Virus record (IMG/VR): IMGVR_UViG_3300042300_000932
Location: 1-33,102 of that record
Length of the DNA: 33,102 nt
Strand: one strand, 5' to 3'
DNA from: a virus
Of the stretch, positions 6,754 through 26,436 are shown one piece after another (the stretch's first letter is position 1; each line of letters begins with the position of its first letter). A program made the position numbers and the translations under genes. A model generated the notes under the pieces. It was given only the letters and a program-made list of their open reading frames with translations. It was not told where the DNA came from and searched no databases.

Positions 6754-8061
6754 TTAGATGCATCGGAGCGTTCTGAACGCCGCTGGTTGTGCCGGTGCGC
6801 CGCCGATTCGGTAGCGCAAAGTAAATAAGGTTCGGTTGGAAGTGTAGTTCACTTCTTGCTGAACCTTAATGGTCATCACACCGCGTCGAGCAAGCACGTA
6901 TTGGGACAGATCACCGAAGATCACAGGCAACGCGCCATCAGCCAAGTTCGGCATGTGCGCGGAGTAAGCAATCGGGTAACCGTTCAAAGTGTCAGGCTGA
7001 GCATCAGTGATACCGTTGTTGACACCGCCACGCCGGAAGATCGGCTGACCGTCTGAACCTTGCAGAGTGATCGCAGCCTTTCCAGCCGATTGTCGGTTCA
7101 TGACAAAAGTACCGTTGGATGCGTATTGCTCCGGAAGCTCCATTGTGATTCCCACCAGGTCTTGCCAGGAGAAGGAGTCGTTGACAGTTGTGGCAACGTT
7201 GGTGATACCGTTAGCGAAGCCAGTTGCAGAAGCAGTGACCAAGCCGAGCGGCCCGAGGTTTCCACCGAGACCGTTTGCAATCAAGCCATCAATGTTCACA
7301 GCCGCCATTTCCATCAAGTTCGTGGTGATCCAAGAACCGAAGTTCACTGTATCTTCCAAGAAGTCGTTGGTAACAGGCAGGGTCGCCATGTACGTGTGAA
7401 TGTTGATCACAGTCTCACCGAATACCGGCTCAGGGTTCACGTTTGCCGCAGTAGCTGAGGCAGGTTGCTCACCCGTGAGGATCGGACGCATACCGGAGGT
7501 ATACAGATCGTCGGCGGTGTACCGGATCGTCGGGTACTTGATCTGGTTGCTTGCGGCTTGGAAGTTGGTCACCAAGTTCTGCAACCGGTACGGAGCCACC
7601 TTTCGCTGGATCGGGTCAGTCATAAACTGAGGAGGAACGAAGAATCCACCTTCAGTATCAACCATTTCGTTGACGACCTTAAGAGTCTGGGTATCGCTTG
7701 GCTTACCCTTGGTCATGAAGAAGTCAACAAATGCCTTGACGTGTTCGTCGGTGCCATAGATTCGAGCTTGCTTCTCGGTCATCTCTGGACGGTCGTCAAA
7801 GGTCAAACCCTTGCTCGAAAGAACAGCAGATTCAGCCTTTGCAGTGGTATCAAGAGCATTGACGCCCTTACCAGCCGCCAGGTCAGCCTGTGCCTTTTCA
7901 GCCGCAACGGCAGCTTCCATTTGGGACTTGAGTGAGGTAAGTTCCTCGGTCATAGCCTTCAGTGCGGTCACTTCTTCCGAGGAAGCCGTGCCAGCCTGAG
8001 CCTTCACAATGATTGGCTCCATTTTGGAGCGCAGTTCAGTTTCTTTTTGAGTGAAATTCAT
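6754..8061 (-). CDS. HK97-fold major capsid protein with N-terminal delta domain
   Basis: A 435-aa protein of the HK97 capsid family. Residues ~1-65 are helical and charged (a scaffold-like delta domain). The mature part probably starts near residues 90-120, before a typical region EMVDTEGGFFVPPQF and QRKVAPYRLQNLVTNFQ. Later segments GGNLGPLGL and GTFVMNRQSA..ITLQGSDG match the P-domain and A-domain pattern of the family, and the C-terminus has the LRYRIGGAP region. The encoded protease just upstream would remove the delta domain. I chose ATG 8061 (MNFTQKETEL) rather than the in-frame TTG at 8103, because 8061 follows the protease stop and gives a standard N-terminus. Confidence 0.93.
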   Translation of the reverse strand: MNFTQKETELRSKMEPIIVKAQAGTASSEEVTALKAMTEELTSLKSQMEAAVAAEKAQADLAAGKGVNALDTTAKAESAVLSSKGLTFDDRPEMTEKQARIYGTDEHVKAFVDFFMTKGKPSDTQTLKVVNEMVDTEGGFFVPPQFMTDPIQRKVAPYRLQNLVTNFQAASNQIKYPTIRYTADDLYTSGMRPILTGEQPASATAANVNPEPVFGETVINIHTYMATLPVTNDFLEDTVNFGSWITTNLMEMAAVNIDGLIANGLGGNLGPLGLVTASATGFANGITNVATTVNDSFSWQDLVGITMELPEQYASNGTFVMNRQSAGKAAITLQGSDGQPIFRRGGVNNGITDAQPDTLNGYPIAYSAHMPNLADGALPVIFGDLSQYVLARRGVMTIKVQQEVNYTSNRTLFTLRYRIGGAPAQPAAFRTLRCI

Positions 8062-8065
8062 AGCG

Positions 8066-10827: not shown

Positions 10828-12174
10828 CACCGCTACCGAAATGCGCTTCTTGGCTGCCAGGTAGTTGAACCCACCAGCGAGCGTATCAACCTGGTCATCA
10901 TGGCGACCACGCGGGAATGTCCGCAATTCTTCAACGAATTCGGTATTCCAATGCGCTCGAGCAATCACGATATTCTCACCCGCGATCTGGGACGCGACAG
11001 GTTCAGCGCGGACTTCCTTGCTTCCCGTTTCCCGTTCATCATAGACCGGAAAGCCAGCGAGCATCCGCTTCATCGCGCTAATCTGAGCATCACCAGCAGA
11101 GCCGGGATCGTTCGGAAACACCTGCCTCACCGCCCGTCCATCCCTGCTCACGGTTTGCAGAATCACCTGGTCACGCTCAAAGACGTTCCAGCGACCACGC
11201 ACTACATCGGTCACATAGAACCGCCCATCTCGGCACGGCCCTTCGATCAAGAGGCCGACGGTATAGTCCCCCTCAGGTGAGCTTGCCAAGTCCCAACGTC
11301 TTACCTTTGGTAGATTGATTGGCACCTCGTCATGGTTGCAGTAGACCAGACTTCCGACCTTAAACAGCGTTCCTTCTCGTGGGCTTGGGTTGCCCTGGTA
11401 CATCGCCTCAAATGAATACGGGTTCTGGAGCTTGCGTTCCTCTAATTGCTCCAATGTCACACGGTCAGGGCATAACGCCTCGCCAGGAGCGCGACCAAGA
11501 ATATCGTTTTCAAGCGCGATCGCTGGGAGGTTTAGGAGCGTCCATCTTTGGTTACCCGGAGCGTTCCGAATACGTCCGTGCAATCCGTCCTGGTGCCATT
11601 CCGTGCCGATAAGCACCTGGTGCTTCATGTTCCGAGCGATCCAAACGTCCGTGAACCACTCCCAAAGCGAGTCCCGGGCATTCAGACTCTCAGCCTGGTC
11701 ACGGTCTTTGATCGGGTCATCAAGTATCCCAATGTCTACCGGGAACGACGTGAACGCACCACCAACACCAGTAGCGCGAACCTTACTACCATCGTCCAGT
11801 TCCCATTCCTGAACGCTCTTGAGGTCACCAGTAAACTCAGCCCCAACGCCTTCCATAATCCGCCGAATCGAGCGCGAGATTCTAAGGCTTGGCGTTTCCG
11901 AGTAGGACGCAATCCCCACGCGAGTTTCCTTGCGCTGGTTGAGCAGGAACGCCCCAAACCCGATAGATGCGACCTGAGTCTTGCCATGCTGAGGAGGGCA
12001 GGAGATCATCAGGTTTTCAATCTCGCCATCAGCTAACGCCTGGAGATGCTCGATGATGACCTTGGTATGCGGCCAGTCCCAGCGCATATTGGGCATCGCG
12101 TAAGGAAGGAAGCGGCTTAGATCGCGCCGCCTAATTTCCGCTTGAATTTCCGCTAGGGAGGGAACCCTTCGCAA
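10825..12174 (-). CDS. terL: Terminase large subunit
   Basis: A 449-aa packaging motor ATPase and nuclease. Walker A is CPPQHGKT (residues 59-66) and Walker B is VDIGILDDP (146-154), with the catalytic acidic pair following. The RNase H-like nuclease domain begins at RRWDLA (D295) and its late acidic cluster is RHDDQVDTLAGG near residues 427-438. The start is TTG 12174, supported by GGAGG six bases upstream and by the N-terminal helix (SLAEIQAEIRRRDLSRFL) typical of the family; the first ATG would remove it. It overlaps TerS by 44 bases in another frame. The motor is recognisable, but whether the phage uses pac or cos packaging cannot be read from it. Confidence 0.95.
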   Translation of the reverse strand: MRRVPSLAEIQAEIRRRDLSRFLPYAMPNMRWDWPHTKVIIEHLQALADGEIENLMISCPPQHGKTQVASIGFGAFLLNQRKETRVGIASYSETPSLRISRSIRRIMEGVGAEFTGDLKSVQEWELDDGSKVRATGVGGAFTSFPVDIGILDDPIKDRDQAESLNARDSLWEWFTDVWIARNMKHQVLIGTEWHQDGLHGRIRNAPGNQRWTLLNLPAIALENDILGRAPGEALCPDRVTLEQLEERKLQNPYSFEAMYQGNPSPREGTLFKVGSLVYCNHDEVPINLPKVRRWDLASSPEGDYTVGLLIEGPCRDGRFYVTDVVRGRWNVFERDQVILQTVSRDGRAVRQVFPNDPGSAGDAQISAMKRMLAGFPVYDERETGSKEVRAEPVASQIAGENIVIARAHWNTEFVEELRTFPRGRHDDQVDTLAGGFNYLAAKKRISVAV

Positions 12175-19312: not shown

Positions 19313-19340
19313 TATTATACCAAATTTACGGAAAATAGTA
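19313..19340 (-). promoter_or_regulatory. PL-like promoter with repressor operator (inverted copy of 20636-20663)
   Basis: Read on the minus strand this is a 28-bp sequence ending in TGGTATAATA: an extended -10 (TGn-TATAAT, with -10 at 19314-19319) and no good -35. The identical 28 bases occur in the opposite orientation at 20636-20663, so they very probably hold the operator bound by the S24 repressor. The -10 lies 6 nt before ATG 19307, predicting transcription from the start codon itself. Confidence 0.8.
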
Positions 19341-19373
19341 ATAGTATCAGGCGATTTTTTGAAAATAATTCTG

Positions 19374-19379
19374 TATGAT
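19374..19379 (+). promoter_or_regulatory. -10 of the repressor promoter (leaderless start)
   Basis: TATGAT, 6 nt before the repressor ATG 19386, in an AT-rich stretch with no SD. The geometry matches a leaderless mRNA like lambda cI from PRM. A weak or absent -35 fits a promoter that needs activation. Confidence 0.55.
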
Positions 19380-19385
19380 CCTTTT

Positions 19386-20099
19386 ATGGCGTCAGAAAAG
19401 GATAAATTGATCGGCAAAGAAGTGCGGCGCGTCATGGCGTCAGCGCGACCTAGGAAGATCACATCAATAGATTTGGCGTTAAAAATGAACCTCACGCAAT
19501 CTAAGGTGGAAAATCTCCTTGGTGGAAAAATCACGTTCACCCCCGAGCTGCTGCGCGAAATAGCTGAAGCCCTAGACCTTCCCCATGATTGGGCCTCCAG
19601 CGTAGGGAAAGAAGTCAGCGACCCAAGATTCGCAGTGACTTACTTAAAGATGACCATAAAACACGCAGGACAGATTCCCGCCGGACAATGGAGCGATCCT
19701 GGCGAGTCGGAAGAATTCTGCGAAGTCGAGGCAAGACTATTTAAGACCAATAGGTTCTGCGCGGAGATAGTAGGAGAGTCTTGCTACCCTGCATTGCAGC
19801 CGGGCGATTTTACGATCTGGGAAGCCAACCGCAACCCGAAGCTAAACAAGATCATCATCGCTGAAAGATATCCAGACCATGCCGCAACTGTAAAGGTGCT
19901 AATATGGGACGCAGACCTAAAGCGTCCAGCTCTTTTTGCGATCAACCCCGCATTTCAGGAACCGTTAAGCGAACACTGGGACGCCATCGCCTTTCTGGTA
20001 CACGTCTCATATACCGACGATGACGGAGGCGAGATAACGTTCTACCGCGAAGACGGAATCCGGCCAGAGCAACTCATAAAATATAGAGGAGAAAAATGA
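19386..20099 (+). CDS. LexA/CI-like repressor with S24 peptidase domain
   Basis: A 237-aa prophage repressor. An N-terminal helix-turn-helix (~27-65, TSIDLALKMNLTQSKVENLL) is followed by a hinge with a plausible Ala-Gly self-cleavage site (KHAGQIPAG, A94-G95). An S24 peptidase domain follows, with catalytic Ser in VGESCYPALQPGD (S132) and catalytic Lys in ATVKVLIWD (K170). It should hold the PL/PR-like promoters shut in the lysogen and self-cleave when RecA is activated by DNA damage. I chose ATG 19386, because the earlier ATG 19359 lies upstream of the -10 and adds a non-family peptide. It overlaps the next gene by ATGA, so both are probably made in the lysogen. Confidence 0.88.
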   Translation: MASEKDKLIGKEVRRVMASARPRKITSIDLALKMNLTQSKVENLLGGKITFTPELLREIAEALDLPHDWASSVGKEVSDPRFAVTYLKMTIKHAGQIPAGQWSDPGESEEFCEVEARLFKTNRFCAEIVGESCYPALQPGDFTIWEANRNPKLNKIIIAERYPDHAATVKVLIWDADLKRPALFAINPAFQEPLSEHWDAIAFLVHVSYTDDDGGEITFYREDGIRPEQLIKYRGEK

Positions 20100-20560
20100 A
20101 CGACCAAGACTTTTCGCAAGATGATATGATGCAACCGGTTTACTGCATCGATTGCCGAAAACATATATCTAGGGCATACAGCGACCTCACAAAAGGAAAG
20201 TGCGCCACGTGCGCCGCAAAGACGGTCGCTGCCCCGCCAATCCAACCGCAACCTAAAAAGCCGTTTTCCTTCAAATCGCTTTTCTTCGGATCTTTGGTAA
20301 ATACATCTAGGCTAGTCGGACCGTGCCAATCGTGTGGATGCGTGAACTGCTTGTACAAGAATAAGCACAAGCCCGGACCGTACGAAGTTTGTGGAGCAAT
20401 CGCCGCCGGATGCTTTCTTGTGGGCTTCTTTACGTGTGGCGCTACCTGGGTGATTGCCGCCGTCTGCCTTGTTGCCATGCTATTCCTACCACGGGAAATT
20501 GTGTACACGATCAAACGATGCCCAGAGTGCAATGCGGTTGAAAAACTAATGCCGATATAA
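20096..20560 (+). CDS. Zinc-ribbon membrane protein co-expressed with repressor
   Basis: A 154-aa protein with an N-terminal zinc ribbon (YCIDCRK, then GKCATCAAK; Cys pairs near residues 17/20 and 36/39), a Pro-rich linker, a second Cys cluster (GPCQSCGCVNC), two closely spaced hydrophobic segments around residues 98-131 and a final CPEC pair. It is read from the repressor transcript (ATGA overlap) and ends just before a strong terminator. A membrane protein made in the lysogen is a natural candidate for superinfection exclusion or host-surface change, but that is inference. No specific family is recognised. Confidence 0.7.
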   Translation: MNDQDFSQDDMMQPVYCIDCRKHISRAYSDLTKGKCATCAAKTVAAPPIQPQPKKPFSFKSLFFGSLVNTSRLVGPCQSCGCVNCLYKNKHKPGPYEVCGAIAAGCFLVGFFTCGATWVIAAVCLVAMLFLPREIVYTIKRCPECNAVEKLMPI

Positions 20561-20585
20561 GACCTTTTTTTGGCTCAAAATGAAT

Positions 20586-20614
20586 CCTCGCTGAACCCAG
20601 CGGGGACTTTTTTT
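20586..20614 (+). terminator. Intrinsic terminator after the repressor operon
   Basis: CCTCGCTG-aacc-CAGCGGGG is an 8-bp stem (one G-T pair) followed by AC and seven T. It lies 26 bases after the stop of the zinc-ribbon gene and 22 bases before the rightward promoter/operator, separating lysogeny transcription from the early right operon. Confidence 0.88.
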
Positions 20615-20635
20615 CACTTTTTTTTCTACTGACCC

Positions 20636-20663
20636 TACTATTTTCCGTAAATTTGGTATAATA
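20636..20663 (+). promoter_or_regulatory. PR-like promoter with repressor operator
   Basis: A 28-bp sequence identical to the reverse complement of 19313-19340. It holds an extended -10 (TGG-TATAAT, -10 at 20657-20662) facing right. The predicted start is near 20669, leaving a short leader with SD GAGGA before ATG 20697. It should drive the rightward operon that includes the integrase and, by read-through, the methyltransferase. Confidence 0.82.
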
Positions 20664-20696
20664 TATCTTGTAGCCGCGACAACGGCACGAGGATAT

Positions 20697-22729: not shown

Positions 22730-23068
22730 ATGCAATTCAGCACCGCAGATTTACGAGGATTTAATGCGCTTCCGCTAAAGAAGCGACGTGAATTCCTCGC
22801 GCTTTGCGCTATGCTGGAATCCGATGAGCCAGAACAACGAACCGAATATCCGAGCGAAAGGCAACGGATGGGAAGCGAGGATGCAAATCCAGGGGACAGC
22901 TTATCAAGCCTACGCAAGCACCAAGCAAGAAGCGGTCGCCCGGCTAAAGGAAAAGGTGTCACAGTCGCTCAGGCCGCAGGGCTTGACGGACAACACCTTC
23001 AGGTCATTGATGGAGGGATTGTATCTCCCGACGATCAGCAACACATCGAAGGCATACCAGAGGGATGA
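22730..23068 (+). CDS. Possible ORF overlapping the integrase start (112 aa, uncertain)
   Basis: ATG 22730 has a good SD (AGGA, 7 nt upstream) and the first ~32 codons (RGFNALPLKKRREFLALCAM) look like protein and lie in otherwise unused DNA. From 22824 on, it overlaps the integrase by 245 bases in another frame, where its composition becomes polar and less protein-like. It could be a real overlapping gene, a leader peptide that couples integrase translation, or the original start of the integrase before a frameshift. I rate only the first part as likely translated. Confidence 0.35.
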   Translation: MQFSTADLRGFNALPLKKRREFLALCAMLESDEPEQRTEYPSERQRMGSEDANPGDSLSSLRKHQARSGRPAKGKGVTVAQAAGLDGQHLQVIDGGIVSPDDQQHIEGIPEG

Positions 23069-23870
23069 AATGAGAGTCGCAACACTACACATGCCCTGGA
23101 TAAACACCGACGTTTCCGAGATAAGTAGGCAATGGATTCAGAACCATATCAACCGATTGCCAAAGACCAGCCCGAAGGTCATCAGCGACGTTAAGCGCAT
23201 CACTCGCTCCGTACTTAAATTGGCAGTCATAGACGGCATCTTGCAGGTGAACCCGGCCGAGTACATCAAATTGCCCAAACGCTCGTACAAGCCAGGGAAA
23301 TACCTCACCGCCGAGGAACTTCGAATCTTAATTGCCTACGCCGTAGAAAAGCAATCCCCGGCACTACCAGCAATCGTACTCACTGGGCTACTCGGCATCG
23401 GCTGGGAAGAAATACGCGACATAGAGCCGAAGCACTTCAACAAGAACCTGCTTACGATCGTGCGCGAAAAGACGAGATACCGCCGCCGCATCATCCCAGT
23501 TCCAAACAAAGTCCTGCAGCTCATCAAAGGGCAGACATTCCCGTTGCTGAAATCCGACGTATCTACGATCTACCACCAGATAGAAAAGCTAACCAACGAT
23601 TTATCCATGGAGAAACTAGGCAGGAACATCTTGCGGCATACCTGCGCTACTGGCCTCCAGGAGCTAAACACGAGCCTGGAAATACGGGCAATGATCTTAG
23701 GACATACGCCGCCAGGAGGAGCCACCCGCGACTATTCAGACAGCCAAATGATCGAAGTGAAGTCTGAGCAGCTTAACCTATGGGTAGACACGGTTCTATC
23801 TGAGGGTTGGGAATACAGTTGGGAATGCCGGATCAAAAATCAAGGAGAAATTATTGAACTTTTCCGCTAA
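22824..23870 (+). CDS. int: Tyrosine recombinase integrase (atypical catalytic residues)
   Basis: A 348-aa phage integrase that should recombine attP with a host tRNA-Leu. The N-terminal arm-binding part is AP2-like (RAKGNGWEARMQIQGTAYQA, then YASTKQEAVARLKEK), followed by a SAM-like core domain and the catalytic domain. In the catalytic part, Lys in VREKTRYRRRIIPVP, Arg271 in ILRHTCAT, His294 in ILGHTPP and Tyr304 in TRDYSDS are present. However, the first Arg (TG.R..E) reads LGIGWEEI (Gly193), and the His of HxxR is Asn268. ATG 22824 is chosen because the upstream ATG 22788 adds unrelated residues. It ends just before attP. Placement behind the PR-like promoter is unusual. Confidence 0.85.
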   Translation: MSQNNEPNIRAKGNGWEARMQIQGTAYQAYASTKQEAVARLKEKVSQSLRPQGLTDNTFRSLMEGLYLPTISNTSKAYQRDEMRVATLHMPWINTDVSEISRQWIQNHINRLPKTSPKVISDVKRITRSVLKLAVIDGILQVNPAEYIKLPKRSYKPGKYLTAEELRILIAYAVEKQSPALPAIVLTGLLGIGWEEIRDIEPKHFNKNLLTIVREKTRYRRRIIPVPNKVLQLIKGQTFPLLKSDVSTIYHQIEKLTNDLSMEKLGRNILRHTCATGLQELNTSLEIRAMILGHTPPGGATRDYSDSQMIEVKSEQLNLWVDTVLSEGWEYSWECRIKNQGEIIELFR

Positions 23871-24065: not shown

Positions 24066-24794
24066 TTGACGCACCTTTCACTCTTTAGCGGAATAGGCGG
24101 AATCGATCTTGCAGCTCATTGGGCTGGATTCTCTACCATTGCTCTAGTCGAGCGCGACGAATACTGCCAAAAGGTTCTCGCAAAGAACTTTCCAGGCGTA
24201 CCCATTTACGACGATGTTACAACTTTCAATGGAGAGCCTTTTTTGGGACGAGTCGCCCTGCTTTCAGGCGGGTCACCTTGTCAAGACATTTCAACAGCAA
24301 ACAGGACAGGAAAAGGTGTTGATGGAGAGCGGTCAGGGCTTTACCGAGAAATCATCCGAATTGCTACCGAATGCAGACCAAATTGGGTACTTATTGAGAA
24401 CGTACATCAGCTCATACATCGAGGACTTGATCGGGTTCTGTCCGACCTGGAAGGAATTGGCTACCGCGCAACAACGATTGTATTATCAAGCGCAAGCACC
24501 GGAGCTACCCATAAACGGAAGCGTATCTGGGTGGTTGCACACTCCGACCAGGACGAGCAATTTGCTTTGCCAATCAATGATGAAGCACCAATGCTGTCGG
24601 AATTTCAGAGACACCTTTGGAGAAACCTTGGAGCCGTGGATGTACGAACGCATGATGGGATTCCCCGAGGGCTGGACAAGTATCGACGACGACGATTAGA
24701 GGCTCTGGGAAATGCGGTTTCGCCTACCCAAGCGTTCCCCATCCTCCAAGCCATAGCAGATTTAACCAACCCACCCCCACAGGTGGACATTTGA
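24066..24794 (+). CDS. C5-cytosine DNA methyltransferase
   Basis: A 242-aa enzyme adding a methyl group to C5 of cytosine in a short target, probably to protect phage DNA from restriction. Motif I is SLFSGIGGIDLA (residues 5-16), motif IV with the catalytic Cys is GGSPCQDIS (C72), motif VI is ENV (111-113), motif VIII is RKRIW (151-155) and motif X is GNAVSP (215-220). The target-recognition region between VIII and X is only about 55 residues, very short. The start is TTG 24066 with GGAGG 7 nt upstream; no earlier ATG fits. A second open frame with methyltransferase-like sequence is nested inside (24214-24699). The Mom-like gene follows one base after the stop. Confidence 0.9.
   Translation: MTHLSLFSGIGGIDLAAHWAGFSTIALVERDEYCQKVLAKNFPGVPIYDDVTTFNGEPFLGRVALLSGGSPCQDISTANRTGKGVDGERSGLYREIIRIATECRPNWVLIENVHQLIHRGLDRVLSDLEGIGYRATTIVLSSASTGATHKRKRIWVVAHSDQDEQFALPINDEAPMLSEFQRHLWRNLGAVDVRTHDGIPRGLDKYRRRRLEALGNAVSPTQAFPILQAIADLTNPPPQVDI
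24214..24699 (+). CDS. ORF nested in the methyltransferase gene, methyltransferase-like C-terminus (uncertain)
   Basis: A 161-codon open frame lies wholly inside the methyltransferase gene, shifted by one base. Its product contains HLVKTFQQQ, SGWLHTPTRTSN, then KHQCCRNF and PWMYERMMGFPEGWTSI. The last is like the 'LNPEWVEWLMGFPIGWT' end of phage proteins usually annotated as DNA methylases, and I recall proteins beginning '..LVKTS/ARTS..'. Each matched piece lies opposite a conserved motif of the main frame (IV, VIII, DGIPRGLD). So it may be a true dual-coded partner or simply the shadow of conserved motifs. Besides ATG 24214, an internal ATG at 24322 has a good SD (AGGAAAAGG). I see no other proof of translation. 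Confidence 0.35.
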   Translation: MLQLSMESLFWDESPCFQAGHLVKTFQQQTGQEKVLMESGQGFTEKSSELLPNADQIGYLLRTYISSYIEDLIGFCPTWKELATAQQRLYYQAQAPELPINGSVSGWLHTPTRTSNLLCQSMMKHQCCRNFRDTFGETLEPWMYERMMGFPEGWTSIDDDD

Positions 24795-25647: not shown

Positions 25648-26436
25648 TCATGCGTTGAGCCTATCCCGGAAGATGGAGAGTATCGCCGTTTCAGCGTCCC
25701 AGTTCTTAGCCCGGTACGCCTTTCGGCCTTCTTTCAGCAGCGTAGAATCTTTGGAGTAAATCTCGCCGCGAACGACGCCCATTCCCCACCCCTGGAAGTT
25801 TGACCGCTGAATGTAGCGAGCCTTCGAGATATTGATCCCCGTGCCTACGTTGGCATACCAAAGATCGGCCGGCTGATTCCCAGCCAAAGAGTCACGGGTA
25901 ACAACGACAGGTCTATGCGAGTGAGCGGAGATAGTCAAGCCGTGTGGAACGCAATGCATCCTGGCTTCGTCCCTGGCAGAATAAACGTTGGCTTTCGTGC
26001 CATGTGTAAAAGAAATTGGGCCGAGGTTCCACCGAACGCTCGACCCATACTTTCTAATGACGTGCCAATCTCGCACCTCGTCCCTAAGCCCCCCGCCCGG
26101 TGGACTCCAGTCTTGCCAATCCACAATATCACGCTGAGACTTCTTCAACCGCCCCGGTTCGCTGATGTTTGCTTCGTGGTTCCCGTAAAGCCAGACGCGC
26201 TTCTTGATAAACGAGAAAGCGTTCAGAATACGCGCATGGTCGCGAGCCGCACGGTACTCGTCAATGATCGTCCAAGGGTTCTCATTGTCCCAGCGCGACC
26301 ATCCCTCACCGTCGTACCAATCCCCCAGGTTCACTAGCACGTCAGGCTGAAAGGATTCAATCTGATCGTGCAGGAACCTTAACGCCGCCGGATCAGCGAC
26401 CGGGTGATGCAAGCAACCAAAGGCGAGAAAGCGCAT
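25648..26436 (-). CDS. Calcineurin-like metallophosphoesterase
   Basis: A 262-aa protein with the order of metallophosphoesterase motifs: FGCLHHP (DxH site, residues 7-12), VNLGDWYDG (GDxxD, 38-42), YGNHEAN (GNHE, 85-88), then FTHGTKAN and ISAHSHRP (the two late His sites). These enzymes hydrolyse phosphomono- or diesters using two metals. The first Asp of DxH is Cys8 here, which may change metal binding. It is the last gene of the late arm, five bases after the deacetylase-domain gene. Its substrate is unknown: a role on DNA, nucleotides or teichoic-type surface polymers are all possible, and a late gene at the tail end favours the host surface only weakly. Confidence 0.8.
   Translation of the reverse strand: MRFLAFGCLHHPVADPAALRFLHDQIESFQPDVLVNLGDWYDGEGWSRWDNENPWTIIDEYRAARDHARILNAFSFIKKRVWLYGNHEANISEPGRLKKSQRDIVDWQDWSPPGGGLRDEVRDWHVIRKYGSSVRWNLGPISFTHGTKANVYSARDEARMHCVPHGLTISAHSHRPVVVTRDSLAGNQPADLWYANVGTGINISKARYIQRSNFQGWGMGVVRGEIYSKDSTLLKEGRKAYRAKNWDAETAILSIFRDRLNA

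Follow-up and report, generated by a model that had tools for sequence, protein, structure and literature searches.

Can a temperate phage hold both of its arms silent with one repressor and a single operator at each early promoter? This question is raised by a locus of the viral record IMGVR_UViG_3300042300_000932, where a repressor gene and a partner gene lie between two outward-facing copies of one 28-bp sequence (Table 1). Throughout, the window is the whole stretch of DNA that was analysed, namely, the 33,102 bases of this record. We examined the pair and the genes around it, compared the cassette with those of related contigs, and weighed the resulting switch against its rivals and against known phages.

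Table 1. Coordinates of the cassette and its flanks in the window.
Feature	Position	Strand	Remarks
First left-arm gene, 84 aa	19053..19307	(-)	divergent from repressor; position of lambda cro; ATG 6 nt after -10
Left promoter/operator copy (putative)	19313..19340	(-)	28 bp; TATAAT 19319-19314 after TGG, facing left
Probable repressor -10, TATGAT	19374..19379	(+)	6 nt 5' of ATG; 33 nt beyond left 28-mer
Repressor, 237 aa	19386..20099	(+)	Cro/CI-type HTH residues ~23-70; Peptidase_S24 95-194; ATG 19386
Partner gene, 154 aa	20096..20560	(+)	overlaps repressor stop; position of lambda rex
Intrinsic terminator	20585..20614	(+)	9-bp stem, then T run; end of repressor operon
Right promoter/operator copy (putative)	20636..20663	(+)	28 bp; TATAAT 20657-20662 after TGG, facing right
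Right-operon 5' leader	20664..20696	(+)	small stem-loop GCCG...CGGC; GAGG ahead of ATG
First right-arm gene, 96 aa	20697..20987	(+)	
Tyrosine integrase	22788-23870	(+)	same strand as first right-arm gene, further along

The inverted pair and the genes around it

The perfect inverted pair reported in the initial annotation was confirmed: the two 28-nt arms are 100% complementary, stand 1295 nt apart and both carry TGG directly 5' of an outward-facing TATAAT, in line with the extended -10 pattern TGnTATAAT. Since a consensus scan that requires both hexamers reports neither outward promoter, no good -35 is present at either, and since the bases flanking the two copies differ, the repeat ends at 28. 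At a tolerance of 3 mismatches, the window, and hence the record (the same 33,102 bases), contains the 28-mer only as the two arms, and none of 100 dinucleotide shuffles of the window contained a match at this threshold. The search for further copies that had been called for was extended to 10 mismatches out of 28 by an exhaustive scan, which found none elsewhere in the record; at 11 mismatches four places appear, of which two fall on the left site, matched in shifted registers on its opposite strand.

Within 300 bp of either 28-mer nothing better than 11 mismatches was found besides the sites, and the places with 11 or 12 mismatches overlap them. At the level of 17-mers, the best places near the sites have 5 or more mismatches, and places of this kind number 4 to 11 per 17-mer over the window as a whole. 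Three tandem operators per control region, as in lambda, were not found, no second copy lying near either promoter, and the proposal of a single operator per promoter rather than three stands. Upstream of the -10, the left and right promoters agree at 20 of 26 nt, which none of 5000 shuffles equalled. To have taken the whole 28-mer for the operator was, however, an overstatement, as its identity owes part to the common -10 element and its dyad is not significant (908 of 2000 shuffles were as good).

The repressor matched Peptidase_S24 of Pfam (PF00717) with 26.3 bits, above the cut-off of 23.3, and HTH_3 with 19.5 bits, under the cut-off of 23. Against PHROG it matched phrog_4, annotated as 'transcriptional repressor' (E 2.6e-11), and its N-terminal part gave a weak alignment with the 434 repressor (E 0.018). 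Its structure model is confident in the N-terminal domain only. A fold search with this model returned mostly XRE-type HTH proteins on top, with a best E of 2e-3 and the lambda repressor at rank 10, and no PDB match at E 0.001. The protein also carries Ala94-Gly95, Ser132 and Lys170, which we take to be the positions of the cleavage site and of the Ser/Lys pair in self-cleaving repressors. It combines, when judged against these motifs, the features of an S24 repressor of the CI/LexA kind, namely, an HTH (below the Pfam cut-off), Peptidase_S24, the cleavage site and the Ser/Lys pair.

Directly behind the repressor comes an extra gene and then a terminator, which is the position of rex, in an operon predicted from the sequence. 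This position suggests that the partner gene is expressed in the lysogen. Its product contains CxxC pairs and is hydrophobic in its C-terminal half; it matched no Pfam or PHROG family above chance and showed no homology to Rex; its structure model was unusable (mean pLDDT 41). We infer a candidate exclusion or host-modifying membrane protein. The terminator pattern is also present in the five related contigs described below.

On the left arm, the 84-aa gene is followed by Gp157 and an Erf-like annealing protein, with the terminase further on. The 84-aa protein matched HTH_32 weakly (E 0.075, under the cut-off). On the right arm, the integrase matched phrog_1 (E 1e-31), its Pfam match being under the cut-off. 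Beyond it, at 24066-24794, we noted a C5 cytosine methyltransferase gene (PF00145, E 5e-37), possibly short, as the match spans profile positions 1-168 of 324; it had no match in the related loci compared, many of which end before that region.

The mRNAs of the first left gene and of the repressor are probably leaderless, because their ATGs (19307 and 19386) stand 6 nt after TATAAT and TATGAT, respectively. A TAnnnT hexamer ending 6 nt before the start was found in 3 of 45 upstream regions (those of the left gene, of the repressor and of 25648-26436), and one ending 3 to 10 nt ahead of it in 8 of the 45. Many of the 45 are mechanical ORF starts and one (6754-8064) was not at a start codon, so we make no claim of a genome-wide leaderless habit. 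A -10 element adjoining the ORF is a known mode of expression in Deinococcus-Thermus, according to the excerpted text of the report (PMC12340547), and no host is assigned here on this basis.

Three immunity types in one cassette

The cassette was compared across six contigs, that is, the window and five contigs found by scans of the viral_contigs collection, which fall into three immunity types. Type A comprises the window, IMGVR_UViG_3300033981_001774 and IMGVR_UViG_3300034092_003405; type B is represented by one contig, 3300034012_001657 (35,372 bases); and type C by 3300042906_001069 and 3300042924_004960. Alignments and segment comparisons covered the window and the loci L004, L005 (type B), L011 and L013 (both type C), leaving out 3300033981_001774, whose repressor, partner and both flanking first genes are identical to those of the window. 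Gene order and direction are common to all six contigs. The HTH matches of the type A and type B repressors are all under the Pfam cut-offs. In the position of cro, the type C gene matched Sigma70_r4_2 (E 0.0018, under the cut-off) and the type B gene had no match; the first left gene starts 8 nt after the -10 in both types (L005, 9925; L013, 1275).

In type A, the 28-mer is exact in all three contigs, at both sites of each. The partner gene of 3300034092_003405 belongs to the other lineage, with 444 of 464 positions identical to L013 versus 347 of 467 to the window. This contig is nevertheless of the window's type in the HTH part of the repressor (267/270), in the 20 bp that precede the right site (20/20) and in the right 28-mer (28/28); thus, the exchange within the cassette has not separated the repressor from its sites. 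The partner proteins of the other lineage have 82-83% identity to that of the window. As a separate observation, the partner gene is kept across the three immunity types despite replacement of the adjacent repressor.

In type C, the repressor is an unrelated HTH protein of 114 aa (HTH_31, E 2.5e-10; L013 857-1201, minus strand, with the same gene in L011) and has no S24 match, so this relative would not be induced by self-cleavage of its repressor, whereas types A and B could be. Each type C contig has exactly two copies of the palindrome TTTGCACAAAATTGTGCAAA, one beside the -10 of either outward promoter; the palindrome is compact (20 bp), near-perfect and in the same place relative to the -10 at both. 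Of 2000 shuffles, 27 had a dyad as good as that of the left site and 159 one as good as that of the right. Upstream of the -10, left and right agree at 23 of 26 nt, which no shuffle out of 5000 matched.

In type B, the repressor joins a new HTH to the S24 domain of type A, the S24 part agreeing at 407 of 444 nt and the HTH part at 131 of 277 nt. Both promoters carry the core TTTGTGGAAA, and TTTGTGGAAA-N4-GGTAA occurs nowhere else in the 35,372 bases, although this pattern was built from the same two sites that it then finds. The left and right promoters agree at 14 of 26 nt, with 197 of 5000 shuffles as good, and neither site has a significant dyad, as good a one being found in 1485 and 1438 of 2000 shuffles. 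The right promoter resembles the right (16) and left (15) promoters of type C more than its own left one (14), and the left promoter resembles the left one of type A (17) more than its own right one (14). The left-right match in type B is therefore weak and ambiguous, with ancestry and function mixed.

Free local alignment gave within-type scores of 28, 15 and 27 for A, B and C, respectively, and between-type scores of 10 to 15. Two between-type pairs, type C left with type A right (14) and type C left with type B right (15), also beat 200 of 200 shuffles; the former score comes from the -10 and the bases below it. Overall, the view that the putative operator and the DNA-binding domain change together is largely supported by these comparisons, clearly between A and C and ambiguously in B. 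The proposal that one S24 repressor acts through the same site on both arms gains from this, weakly as regards B, as well as from the S24 match and the two outward copies, and it is retained here as a prediction.

The small stem-loop of the right leader is found in all three types (z -2.98, -1.74 and -1.97), and 3, 13 and 8 of 200 shuffles equalled the folds of the leaders of the window, of L005 (~11268-11306) and of L011/L013, respectively. The outer G-C pair of its stem in types A and C is A-U in type B (GCCG/CGGC to ACCG/CGGU).

In viral_contigs, a search for more immunity types with the partner alignment, the terminator pattern, the type C right-arm gene and a 979-aa protein encoded by L013 brought up no contig beyond these five, and three types only were found. 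A terminase scan of this collection added seven contigs with at least 96% identity (L009, L012, L014, L015, L017, L018 and L019), none of which matched a type A cassette protein in the stretches compared; most of these contigs are short. In genome_contigs, the partner and terminase patterns matched 52 and 32 stretches, respectively, none of which was a relative by tblastn. The 'phages' collection had no match to the cassette DNA or to the repressor protein at E 1e-5, and the terminase matched 2071 phage records, all below 60% identity and from mixed hosts.

A proposed simpler variant of the lambda switch and its rivals

The order of the lambda immunity region is OL-rexBA-cI-OR. The placing of repressor and partner between the two copies, which had been counted as a second difference from lambda, is this same order, mirrored, and the point does not hold. 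The left promoter takes the place of PR/OR, ahead of the gene in the cro position; the partner that of rex; and the right promoter that of PL/OL, towards int. As in lambda, a repressor of S24 type and an extra gene behind it are flanked by outward early promoters, the repressor has a small gene divergent from it and the integrase is on the opposite arm. In the sections available of one account (PMC11077077), lambda has rex beside cI, PRM, and OL and OR at PL and PR with three sites each. Unlike lambda, the cassette has one putative operator per promoter, its gene in the cro position has a weak HTH match only, and its sites are ~1.3 kb apart, versus ~2.3 kb as given in the portion consulted of PMC5880393. 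The lambda-type arrangement, in which a repressor lies between outward early promoters that share a site, is found in the window and in type C, and weakly in type B. Since the cassette would work as in lambda and has no threefold operators, it is best called a simpler variant of lambda's switch.

We consider it very probable that a temperate tailed phage has here a lambda-like immunity cassette in which each early promoter has a single operator, at which binding is predicted. The S24-type repressor would bind the same single operator at both outward extended -10 promoters and block RNA polymerase there. In the lysogen, the left arm (the small HTH-like gene, Gp157, the Erf-like annealing protein and the terminase) and likewise the right arm (small genes and the integrase) would be silenced, and between the promoters only the repressor and its partner would be transcribed, up to the intrinsic terminator. 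Upon DNA damage, the repressor could cleave itself as CI and LexA do, which would free both promoters at once. The two sites, ~1.3 kb apart, may be bridged. Binding, repression, SOS induction and possible bridging are what we infer from the sequence; that the two-operator immunity cassette is real and coherent is well supported by the comparisons above.

Other readings of the 28-mers were weighed. The lambda operator is 17 bp, and a 28-mer longer than that, with no clear single dyad, could hold two or more overlapping sites, which would make this a multi-site switch like lambda's, compressed; the one compact, near-perfect palindrome at each type C promoter speaks against such a design, which we regard as unlikely. 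The missing dyad, together with the part of the identity explained by the -10 element, would also suit two promoter copies that either stay alike for the sake of expression or serve a host regulator, the phage repressor acting elsewhere. We give this little credence, as the identity extends ~20 bp upstream of the -10, where there is no -35 consensus, and at both ends this upstream stretch has another sequence in the type whose repressor is unrelated; the site of a host regulator would not be expected to track the phage repressor.

Hardly credible to us is that the pair delimits a repressor cassette that is invertible or mobile. Perfect inverted repeats do bound a 1.3-kb unit, yet this has one orientation in six of six contigs, at the same two positions A, B and C have ends of different sequence, and the inner partner gene has been exchanged with the ends unchanged. 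In addition, neither inner gene matches a recombinase, in a scan that covered these two genes and not several small right-arm ORFs before the integrase.

Relation to known switches and significance

Single or few operators are already known, in PY54 and at PR of mycobacteriophage BPs, and so are repressors that diverge together with their sites, in lambda and 434 and in Cluster A mycobacteriophages, as far as the excerpts of the cited reports go. The immB regions of the telomere phages PY54, phiKO2 and N15 resemble our cassette, by their description, as simpler switches, PY54 having one operator between cI and cro; unlike it, OR has three sites in phiKO2 and N15 and OL, located at repA, has two, and their CB repressor is described as lacking the residues conserved in self-cleaving repressors (PMC4997575, in part). 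BPs is alike in that its early PR holds an operator between the -10 and -35 and in having a divergent repressor promoter. In the text available of the report on this phage, the activity of the repressor is tied to integration and to an ssrA-like degradation tag, and the repressor binds five genome regions, a full site being two half sites, which sets BPs apart from the present case (PMC4557955).

The phages lambda and 434 are described as having homologous circuitry with different operator specificities (PMC6550527, in part). The same passages on the Cluster A phages, such as L5 and Bxb1, report that repressor and site motif co-diverge into heteroimmune groups, as here, although with 20 to 30 asymmetric sites genome-wide versus two per contig in our case (PMC6550527); L5 sites are bound by a repressor monomer, as stated in the excerpt of another report (PMC4557955). 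Our comparison with the literature was not exhaustive, and we do not claim that similar switches are absent from print.

A broader proposal appears to us evenly balanced. In a two-site switch, one site per promoter, perhaps bridged over ~1.3 kb, would do the work of lambda's six operators, and the lineage would swap the HTH together with both operators and keep partner and terminator. At least three specificities would exist, with type C, which has no self-cleavage domain, responding to another inducing signal.

The biology is familiar, and the main interest of this lineage is as a natural experiment in specificity exchange. It offers a comparative case, drawn from uncultured phages alone, in which the specificity of the repressor and both matching operators appear to be exchanged as a set, with the rest of the cassette kept. 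As a simple two-operator switch, it may also provide a way to ask whether a lysogen can be both stable and inducible without lambda's threefold operators.
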